Shown here: positions 60,341-62,626 of the stretch, piece by piece
Layout: every line of letters starts with the position of its first letter
Position numbering within the stretch: position 1 is the stretch's first letter
Assembly: GCA_012729655.1 (NCBI GenBank)
Contig: JAAYCS010000036.1
Location: 1 to 64,000, forward strand
Direction: 5' to 3'
Origin: Desulfovibrionales bacterium
GTDB lineage: Bacteria > Desulfobacterota > Desulfovibrionia > Desulfovibrionales > Desulfomicrobiaceae
Length of the DNA stretch: 64,000 nucleotides
Program-made: the position numbers and the translations under genes
The notes under the pieces: generated by a model
The model's database searches: none
Told to the model about the DNA's origin: nothing
Seen by the model: only the letters and a program-made list of their open reading frames with translations

Positions 60341-61030
60341 ATGGACTATAAACACGTCGTGGTTTTGACCGGCGCTGGGATCAGCGCCGAGAGCGGCATC
60401 CCCACATTTCGGGGTGCCGGTGGCTTGTGGTTCAAGCACCGCATCGAGGACGTGGCCACAACAGAAGCCTTTGCCCGGAGTCCGGCACTGGTCCTGGAGT
60501 TCTACAACCAGCGCCGGGCCCAACTGGAAATCGCGCAGCCCAACAAGGCCCATACGGCCCTTGCCCGTCTGGAGCAAGGGTACCGGGTCACAATAGTCAC
60601 CCAGAACGTGGACAATCTGCATGAACGGGCCGGCTCAACCAATGTCCTGCACCTGCACGGCCAGCTGTGCCAGGCACGCAGCTCCGCGGACCCGGACCTA
60701 GTCGTGGACATCGGATACAGACCCATCCGCATGGGTGACACCTGTCCCCTGGGCAGCCAGCTCCGGCCCGACGTGGTTTGGTTCGGGGAACCCGTACCCA
60801 TGATGCACAAAGCGAGCGCAGTGGTGGCCACGGCAGACACGCTCCTGATCATCGGAACGTCCCTGGCCGTATATCCCGCGGCATCCCTGGCCCATGAGGC
60901 CCCGGCACGGGCGGTGGTATTCGTCATTGATCCCGAGGCCGAACCGGGGTGGATCCCGGGAGCCAGGGTGTTCCGTGAAAAGGCCACCCGGCGCGTGCCG
61001 CTTCTCGTGGATGAACTGCTTGGAATGTGA
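60341..61030 (+). CDS. NAD-dependent protein deacylase (sirtuin)
   Basis: 229 residues. The NAD-binding GAGISAESGIPTFRG (residues 11-25), TQNVDNLHERAG (88-99), the catalytic His106 in LHLHGQL, PDVVWFGE and GTSLAVYPAASL are intact, so it should remove acetyl, succinyl or similar groups from lysines. The zinc ribbon is reduced: only Cys110 and Cys135 remain of the usual four cysteines. The ATG at 60341 has AGGA seven bases upstream. The candidate selenoprotein gene starts 12 bases after its stop. Confidence 0.92.
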   Translation: MDYKHVVVLTGAGISAESGIPTFRGAGGLWFKHRIEDVATTEAFARSPALVLEFYNQRRAQLEIAQPNKAHTALARLEQGYRVTIVTQNVDNLHERAGSTNVLHLHGQLCQARSSADPDLVVDIGYRPIRMGDTCPLGSQLRPDVVWFGEPVPMMHKASAVVATADTLLIIGTSLAVYPAASLAHEAPARAVVFVIDPEAEPGWIPGARVFREKATRRVPLLVDELLGM

Positions 61031-61042
61031 GGAGGGAGAAAT

Positions 61043-61186
61043 ATGGAAGATCTGTTGTATGTCTTGCTTATCGTCGGCGTATGGATCGTGCTGGTCAAGG
61101 TCGTATTCCCGAAAATCGGGATTCATGGCTGAGGCCCAGCCACCAAGGGCTGCAGTTGGCAGCCCAGAGACAAGGACAAATCATGA
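61043..61186 (+). CDS. Tiny membrane protein; possible selenoprotein with in-frame UGA
   Basis: The sirtuin stop is followed by GGAGGGAG and an ATG. Up to the TGA at 61130-61132 the product is 29 residues: a charged start, one hydrophobic helix (LLYVLLIVGVWIVLVKVVF) and PKIGIHG. If the UGA is read as selenocysteine the frame continues as G-P-A-T-K-G-C-S-W-Q-P-R-D-K-D-K-S to a second TGA (61184-61186), a 47-residue protein with Sec30 and Cys37 on one side of the membrane. A perfect hairpin lies at bacterial-SECIS distance (61147-61165). If not read through, it is a 29-residue one-helix protein ending at 61132. The strong ribosome site and tight spacing make translation likely either way. Confidence 0.6.
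61147..61165 (+). promoter_or_regulatory. Candidate bacterial SECIS hairpin
   Basis: GGGCTGC and GCAGCCC form a perfect 7-bp stem with the loop AGTTG. The loop begins 21 bases after the UGA, and its second base is G. Both agree with what is known of bacterial SECIS elements (loop about 16-37 bases from the UGA, a G among the first two loop bases). No T-tract follows, so it is not an ordinary terminator. Confidence 0.5.
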
Positions 61187-61588
61187 CTCACGCAGTTCGG
61201 TCATGATGAGACCCACAAACCTGTCCGACCGGCTTTGATATTCCCAGCCAAGTTGGACGGAGCACTGGCGGCAGAAGGCAAAACGCCATGCATATCCCGC
61301 AAACCAAGTGAAGGCGAGGGTGGAATCCCCACCGAAGCCGCACCCCCCGGCTTGGGCAAAGCAACCGACCTCGAAAAGAATGCCCATAGGGTTGAAGAGG
61401 GCATGGATGTGTCTACCGCCCACCTCGATCCGGTCCCTGGGGCTGGCGATGGGCTGGCCGCAGGCCCGACAGAGCAGCATTCTCTGGCCGGATGACTCCA
61501 AGTCGGCCCTGCTCTCGTCAACCAGAAAAGGATCATGGCCGGGACATTCCAGCCGCCGGCAGCTGATGAACAAGTGGCCCTGAAACAT
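61181..61588 (-). CDS. Bacterial CULT-domain (cereblon-like) protein
   Basis: 135 residues. From Cys40 on it follows the CULT domain, the thalidomide-binding part of cereblon: zinc ligands in LCRAC (Cys40, Cys43) and FCRQC (Cys106, Cys109), FNPMG (66-69) and the aromatic cage Trp95, Trp101 and Trp115 in TWFAGYAW and LGWEYQ. It lacks the Lon-like domain of eukaryotic cereblon, as do the known stand-alone bacterial proteins. The native ligand and role are unknown. The first 35 residues are less conserved, and the ATG at 61588 has only a weak ribosome site. Its 3' end overlaps the candidate selenoprotein frame. Confidence 0.85.
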   Translation of the reverse strand: MFQGHLFISCRRLECPGHDPFLVDESRADLESSGQRMLLCRACGQPIASPRDRIEVGGRHIHALFNPMGILFEVGCFAQAGGCGFGGDSTLAFTWFAGYAWRFAFCRQCSVQLGWEYQSRSDRFVGLIMTELRES

Positions 61589-61632
61589 GGCGTATCAATT
61601 ATCCCACTCCAATCTGAAAGCAAAGAGACCCC

Positions 61633-62091
61633 ATGCACATGCTTGCCATTCGTATCGCCCAGGCCGGACTTGTCGCCCGCATCTGGGAATCCTTGAGACA
61701 GGAGGTCGGCACTGAGCGGGCCAGTGCGATCCTGGTCGCAGCCATCGCAGCCGACGCCCGATGTGCGGGGGAAACGTTTGCCCGCACGGCCCCGGGCCGA
61801 GCGAGCCTGCACCATTTTGCCACGGTCCTGGACCGCTGGCAGGACGGAGGTGCGCTGAATATAAAAGACATCCGCCTGACTGAGACGGCCCTGCATTTCG
61901 CCGTGACGGCCTGCGGCTATGCCCAATCCTATGCTGACATGGGCCTGGCACCGGAACTTGGGTCCATCCTGTCCTGTTCCCGGGATGAACCCTTTGCCCA
62001 GGGCTACAGCCCAAACCTGTCCATGTACCGCTCCAGGACCATCATGCAGGGGGCGCCCGCATGCCTTTTTACCTTCACATGGGCTTCATAA
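61633..62091 (+). CDS. L-2-amino-thiazoline-4-carboxylate hydrolase family protein
   Basis: 152 residues. The C-terminal half has VTACGYAQSYADMGLAPELGSILSCSRDEPFAQGYSPNLSMYRSRTIMQG, of which the C-x-R-D and F-x-x-G-Y-x-P-x-L features are those I associate with the ATC hydrolase family (cysteine synthesis from thiazolines in Pseudomonas; other roles elsewhere). There is no signal peptide or helix. The start is ATG 61633 or 61639. It is divergent from the CULT gene with a 44-base gap. Confidence 0.65.
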   Translation: MHMLAIRIAQAGLVARIWESLRQEVGTERASAILVAAIAADARCAGETFARTAPGRASLHHFATVLDRWQDGGALNIKDIRLTETALHFAVTACGYAQSYADMGLAPELGSILSCSRDEPFAQGYSPNLSMYRSRTIMQGAPACLFTFTWAS

Positions 62092-62626
62092 GTCGTGCTG
62101 TTCACAACTAATCCCTTTAATTCAATATAATATCCATGGAAGGAACTTAACAGACCCCCTTCTCGGCATGCACACTGCGGCACGTCTTCCCGCCTGCAAG
62201 CAAGACTCCGACAGTCTCAGTCCCTGTTCTTCTCAACCCGCGCCGGCGATCGTTGGAGCCCGCTCAATGGCCCGCCCCCCCGCCAACACAAGGTTACATT
62301 TTCGCAGATGCTGATGTTCGTAATCCCCGAAAACTCTGCCTCGGCTGGTGTGTTCCTAAATGGGCCGATAATCCGGCTGGCTTTGCCCAATAAAAGTTAC
62401 TGACACCCACTAGTTGATATTTTATTCTATTATTTCAGAATATTAATATCAATCCGAACATTGCAATAATACTTTTGCGAACACATCAACCATTTTCCCT
62501 GCGGCTGATAATTCTGTTCATTGCCTGTTCAAAAAATGAATTCAGGTGTTTGTCTTGACGGTTTTATAAACTGGGGATTGACGAACAAAAAAAAGAACAG
62601 CACCGAGAAACAAGCAGGAGGTGAAT
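62092..62626. other. 535-bp intergenic region
   Basis: I find no gene, tRNA or clear terminator. The part 62405-62530 is AT-rich for this genome and holds TTGATATT (62414-62421) and its inverse AATATCAA (62445-62452), probably promoter DNA for the DUF4126 gene. TTGACG occurs at 62554. The left part is ordinary GC-rich DNA without a frame that looks coding. Confidence 0.5.

Follow-up and report, generated by a model that had tools for sequence, protein, structure and literature searches.

How does a CULT domain, the drug-binding domain of cereblon, work on its own in a bacterium, and which ligand and which partner would it serve? This question is raised by a 135-residue protein encoded in the window, by which we mean the whole stretch of 64,000 nucleotides that was analysed (positions 1 to 64,000 of contig JAAYCS010000036.1, assembly GCA_012729655.1, from a Desulfovibrionales bacterium). 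The gene lies on the minus strand and begins with ATG, and the plus-strand reading of the same interval is interrupted by stops. Its features are given below with the evidence in brackets; papers marked "in part" are cited for particular sections or passages.

61181..61588, minus strand: CULT-domain protein, 135 aa (ORF; MsCI4 match 4e-22; fold Z 20.3)
61484..61588, minus strand: N-terminal tail, residues 1-35, predicted to be of low confidence or disordered (block pLDDT 51-57 over residues 1-30)
61550..61567, minus strand: residues 8-13, ISCRRL, diverged copy of the tail motif (EM motif search)
61469..61471, minus strand: zinc ligand C40 (invariant in 101 sequences)
61460..61462, minus strand: zinc ligand C43 (invariant in 101 sequences)
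61382..61393, minus strand: N66-P67-M68-G69, NPMG (N66 invariant, P67 and G69 each 100/101)
61304..61306, minus strand: cage W95, equivalent to MsCI4 W79 and human W380 (PDB match, alignment; PMC8900816, in part)
61286..61288, minus strand: cage W101, equivalent to MsCI4 W85 and human W386 (PDB match, alignment; PMC8900816, in part)
61271..61273, minus strand: zinc ligand C106 (invariant in 101 sequences)
61262..61264, minus strand: zinc ligand C109 (invariant in 101 sequences)
61244..61246, minus strand: cage W115, equivalent to MsCI4 W99 and human W400 (PDB match, alignment; PMC8900816, in part)

When the protein was compared with all PDB sequences (phmmer), the best matches were chains of Magnetospirillum cereblon isoform 4 (MsCI4; E = 4e-22), followed by "Protein cereblon" chains with E-values of 6e-8 to 8e-6, and judging from these E-values the matches are far past chance level. 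No Pfam or NCBIfam model exceeded its cut-off; Yippee-Mis18 (PF03226) scored 22.0 bits against a cut-off of 26.6 and GFA (PF04828) 15.3 bits against 24.3, so that the protein is assigned to neither family. A LON domain preceding CULT was not found (Pfam), and with an ORF of 135 aa, a stop codon just upstream and a low-confidence tail, the layout of the cereblon E3 receptor is absent from this gene. Outside the CULT domain the protein has just a tail of low pLDDT.

An AlphaFold2 (AF2) model built with a 101-sequence alignment has a core (residues 36-135) with block pLDDT values of about 96-99 (~97 for the core), while the values are 51-57 for residues 1-30 of the tail. Foldseek placed the MsCI4 entries first for this model, and VIA-align superposed the core on MsCI4 with a Z of 20.3 (0.8 A over 100 residues, 41-42% identity), as expected of the beta-tent fold of the CULT family. 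The overlay on the human cereblon (CRBN) CULT domain, proposed as a check along with the original prediction, was also close (Z 18.4, 1.1 A over 99 residues, 26% identity). Because W95, W101 and W115 align with MsCI4 W79, W85 and W99 and the AF2 core superposes closely, it follows that the three cage Trp share one predicted pocket.

Conservation across the family is consistent with this placement. C40, C43, H62, N66, W95, F96, W101, C106, C109, G114, W115 and F124 are invariant in the 101 aligned bacterial CULTs, so that both CxxC zinc motifs (C40/C43 and C106/C109) and the three Trp that characterize the family are present. The NPxG letters, which we take to be the hairpin-tip motif of CULT domains, occur as NPMG at residues 66-69, and N, P and G are kept in 100 or 101 of the 101 sequences. 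Since 80 of the 101 homologues had been retrieved with a WFxG-type pattern that itself contains two of the Trp, the 20 sequences retrieved without this pattern were checked separately, and they also keep all of the Cys and Trp. The four zinc Cys, the NPxG loop and the three cage Trp are thus all at the positions originally predicted, and sequence, predicted fold and the alignment of the family all back a stand-alone bacterial CULT with an intact cage: the protein is a free-standing member of the CULT family with the family fold, an intact cage and an intact zinc site. Two substitutions, judging from the alignment, count against the reader explanation given below. Where MsCI4 has its cage acid, Glu76, the window protein has A92 (this column contains E in 79/101, D in 13, and A in 7), and Gln is found at position 112, where 97/101 sequences have His.

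Free-standing bacterial CULTs have been in print since 2015, mainly from delta-proteobacteria and including a sequence from Desulfonatronospira (PMC4287342, in part), and the window protein is therefore one more member of a known family. The closest studied relative, MsCI4 (MGR_0879) of Magnetospirillum gryphiswaldense (PDB 4v2y and others), is likewise free-standing and has the same fold, zinc site and three-Trp cage. The two proteins also share a Phe at the position of human His378 (F93, equivalent to MsCI4 Phe77) and a Tyr (Y117, equivalent to Tyr101), which contributes an extra hydrogen bond in MsCI4 (PMC8900816, in part). In contrast, the window protein replaces Glu76 by Ala and the conserved His112 by Gln, and it has an extra C83 and a longer tail, in which 39 residues precede the first zinc Cys versus ~23 in MsCI4 (C40 corresponds to chain residue 24). 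The thalidomide-binding domain of human CRBN has the fold and the cage Trp in common with the window protein, but the latter lacks the LON domain and any E3-ligase context. Bacterial CULTs serve as a crystallography model for a drug target that is used across targeted protein degradation.

Bacterial CULT tails share a conserved motif, Phi-x-[LCF]-[LFY]-R, which in most cases is separated from the first zinc Cys by 32-37 residues. An EM search of these tails in the 101-sequence set reached a log-likelihood ratio (LLR) of 252.9, compared with 108.6-129.5 in 12 shuffles. After removal of L141 and of tails shorter than 24 residues, the 101 sequences were clustered to 61 with <65% core identity, and the LLR of this de-duplicated set was 105.5 against a mean of 66.0 (sd 4.0, max 72.3) in 40 shuffles; masking the best motif sites in these 61 sequences lowered it to 62.3, the level of the shuffles. 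The test is this comparison with shuffles; a single site of >3 bits does not discriminate on its own. The Arg column contains R in 46/61, K in 7 and Q in 7 in a 65-sequence alignment that was chosen and aligned on the tails and may favour the motif. In the larger set, motif and Cys lie a median of 33.5 residues apart (middle half 32-36); the distances scatter more in the de-duplicated set (10th-90th percentile 30-53). The linker is acidic, being net negative in 54/65. Because only ~23 residues precede the first zinc Cys of MsCI4, that protein lacks the position of the motif, and its structures could not have revealed it.

Short conserved motifs in disordered tails are often docking sites, and the conserved tail motif suggests a protein partner. 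Docking of the tail within its own molecule was rejected, on weak evidence, from the AF2 model of L120, a relative with a strong motif, in which the tail blocks have pLDDT values of 47-55. The window copy, ISCRRL, deviates from the consensus in that Arg replaces the hydrophobic residue at position 4, and this degeneration counts against the explanation that we give below. That MsCI4, which has no motif position, still binds ligands counts against it as well. None of the papers listed in our literature searches appears to describe an N-terminal motif or adaptor role for a bacterial CULT, and PMC4287342 mentions neither ClpX nor an adaptor nor an N-terminal tail. The motif would thus offer a concrete handle on partners, beyond the reach of the shorter-tailed MsCI4 structures, and may show how CULT proteins work without ubiquitin.

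A bacterial homologue binds glutarimides and uridine (PMC4449219 and PMC4287342, both in part), only the ring edge of the ligand being recognized by the bacterial CULT cage, and cereblon binds C-terminal cyclic imides (PMC13001092, in part). We propose that the zinc-pinned beta-tent, carrying a flexible N-terminal tail, would hold small cyclic imides or uracil-like rings by their edge in its three-Trp cage, and that CULT would act as a reader and not as an enzyme. The likeliest natural targets would be proteins, perhaps damaged ones, whose C-terminus has been cyclised to an imide, which is the degron recognized by human cereblon, with free uracil- or uridine-type ligands in second place. The family tail motif would recruit an effector and, with no ubiquitin involved, the bound protein might be passed on, for instance to an AAA+ protease, although we hold this last step more weakly. 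We give an even chance to the explanation as a whole, in which bacterial CULT reads cyclic-imide or uracil-like rings and uses its tail to dock a partner, possibly an AAA+ protease.

A more specific form of this proposal, in which CULT is a ubiquitin-free protease adaptor whose cage takes proteins with a C-terminal cyclic imide and whose tail motif docks a ClpXP-type AAA+ protease, seems unlikely to us. ClpX is encoded in the same genome, which we count in favour of the broader proposal, and the consensus bound by the ClpX zinc-binding domain (ZBD) is reported to be LKxh (PMC7226468, in part), to which the tail motif bears a likeness that may serve as a lead. SspB and other ClpX adaptors resemble CULT proteins in layout only, with a small folded binding domain, a flexible tail and a short hydrophobic-plus-basic motif; the likeness of the CULT motif to the SspB tail is likewise a lead and no more. 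The family motif lies in a tail of low pLDDT and the window copy deviates from it. SspB has an unrelated fold and carries its motif at the opposite terminus, and docking by CULT, like an SspB-like role, is putative. In the phylum SspB was found in only 5/390 genomes. PCMT-family proteins are also encoded in the genome, but we discarded co-occurrence with PCMT as a way of testing the cyclic-imide proposal because PCMT-family hits, found in 395/395 genomes, cannot discriminate. If the adaptor proposal were true, bacteria would own a protein-damage reader homologous to cereblon, and quality control of the cereblon kind would run via proteases instead of ubiquitin.

The gene neighbourhood was examined for further hints. 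An ATC_hydrolase-family gene (61633-62091, plus strand; PF14196, 4.5e-24) is divergent from CULT across a gap of 44 bp, and a candidate selenoprotein gene is convergent with CULT, overlapping it by 6 bp, so that both of the predicted neighbours are really there. Among 13 related loci (12 from the genus and 1 from the family), the ATC hydrolase adjoins CULT in 9 and the convergent small selenoprotein gene in 11. CULT itself is 44-62% identical in the related loci, below the 76-85% of the neighbouring TatD and ThiF (one 31% TatD hit, in L168, aside). Among the best 80 of 472 relatives (L071-L150), the commonest neighbour was cobA/hemD, directly upstream of CULT in 16 loci. In those 16 loci, mostly from Desulfobulbaceae, a cobA/hemD-type gene precedes CULT in the same orientation with a median gap of 92 bp, and 11 of them have a large gene downstream on the opposite strand that we judged by eye to be an SNF2-type helicase. 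When Pfam families were counted over the 80 loci, with ORFs of >900 aa and missing neighbours omitted, the 76 upstream and 62 downstream genes had no theme in common. A protease or protein-repair theme was not seen among the CULT neighbours either, which counts against our explanation; a single convergent gene (L115), which carries two Walker-A motifs, was the only sign of protease neighbours, which were rejected as a theme. Because the neighbours differ between lineages, the neighbourhood points to no single ligand, and the comparison of neighbourhoods suggested with the original prediction leaves its hint of a cyclic-amide or thiazoline ligand unsupported: among the loci searched, the ATC hydrolase was found beside CULT only in the genus, and the selenoprotein is a matter of genus-level synteny.

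These comparisons bear directly on the idea that CULT and the divergent ATC-hydrolase-like gene form a context-specific pair, with CULT binding the thiazoline or cyclic-amide substrate or product of the enzyme. Apart from the adjacency in 9/13 related loci, the two genes occur together in 21/395 genomes (40 with CULT, 113 with the ATC hydrolase; 19 with CULT only, 92 with the ATC hydrolase only and 263 with neither), with an odds ratio of 3.2 and a Fisher p of 8e-4, uncorrected for phylogeny. However, among 120 loci (L031-L150; single-sequence tblastn) the adjacency was found only in the window's locus and three genus relatives, none of the PF14196 places listed for the 20 other co-occurring genomes is adjacent to CULT, and even within the genus L165 and L169 have CULT with no ATC hydrolase alongside. 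We therefore regard such a partnership as extremely improbable. It is scarcely easier to believe that CULT is an enzyme of the beta-tent superfamily, with GFA or MsrB-like chemistry, and not a reader. The Yippee-Mis18 and GFA hits would favour it, but both are below their cut-offs and such weak hits are explained by the shared fold. C76 (96/101) and C83 (95/101) are near-invariant in bacteria and could be taken for catalytic residues, but 11 sequences lack exactly one of them and none of the 101 lacks both, although co-loss would be expected of a catalytic or disulphide pair. A C76-C83 disulphide was rejected for the same want of co-loss; the two Cys lie at the ends of an inter-strand loop (61340-61363, minus strand).

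A better case can be made for a small-molecule sensor or buffer, in which the cage binds free uracil, uridine, dihydrouracil or another cyclic amide and no protein target exists. Uracil and uridine bind MGR_0879/MsCI4, a deoxyuridine co-crystal is available (PDB 4v31; PMC4287342 and PMC4449219, both in part), and recognition of the ring edge alone would suit such ligands. On the other hand, the authors of PMC4449219, in the part available, could give uridine recognition no biological context, no pyrimidine-metabolism family is among the 25 families listed for the upstream-side neighbours (one cytidylate-kinase-like gene lies downstream), and the conserved tail motif suggests a protein partner. 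We consider a sensor possible, though rather doubtful, and we prefer the reader with a docking tail.

CULT is widespread in the genus and scattered across the phylum: it was matched in 40/395 genomes of the phylum sample, in 40/61 relatives (the genome's own included) and in 13/16 genomes of the genus. Of the 472 relatives confirmed in the genome collection we kept the best 80, and the nearest named genus is Desulfomicrobium. CULT was not found in 3/16 genus genomes, one of which is just 63% complete. In L169 (G405, around 7947), a genus relative, CULT has lost its NPxG hairpin and the first of its CxxC zinc motifs but keeps the Trp region in frame; judging from the sequence, this is a decayed or shortened copy. 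Because CULT was not found in these three genomes and is truncated in L169, it is not essential. A mobile or phage origin was rejected, as no relative of CULT was found among viral contigs, plasmids, phage records or PHROGs, and a defence role was rejected, as PADLOC gave no hit for CULT. The promoter and terminator scan of 61000-62200 returned no more signals than shuffled sequence.

The selenoprotein neighbour is well supported. The candidate gene (61043-61186, plus strand) encodes 47 residues of membrane type, MEDLLYVLLIVGVWIVLVKVVFPKIGIHG-U-GPATKGC..., with no NCBIfam family over its cut-off. Its in-frame TGA (61130-61132) is kept in 11/11 relatives, a SECIS-like hairpin is located at 61147-61165, and the genome encodes a tRNA-Sec (83.4 bits). 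A SIR2-family gene (60344-61030, plus strand; PF02146, 2.9e-42) precedes it and, judged by eye, shows only two Cys where the zinc site usually lies.
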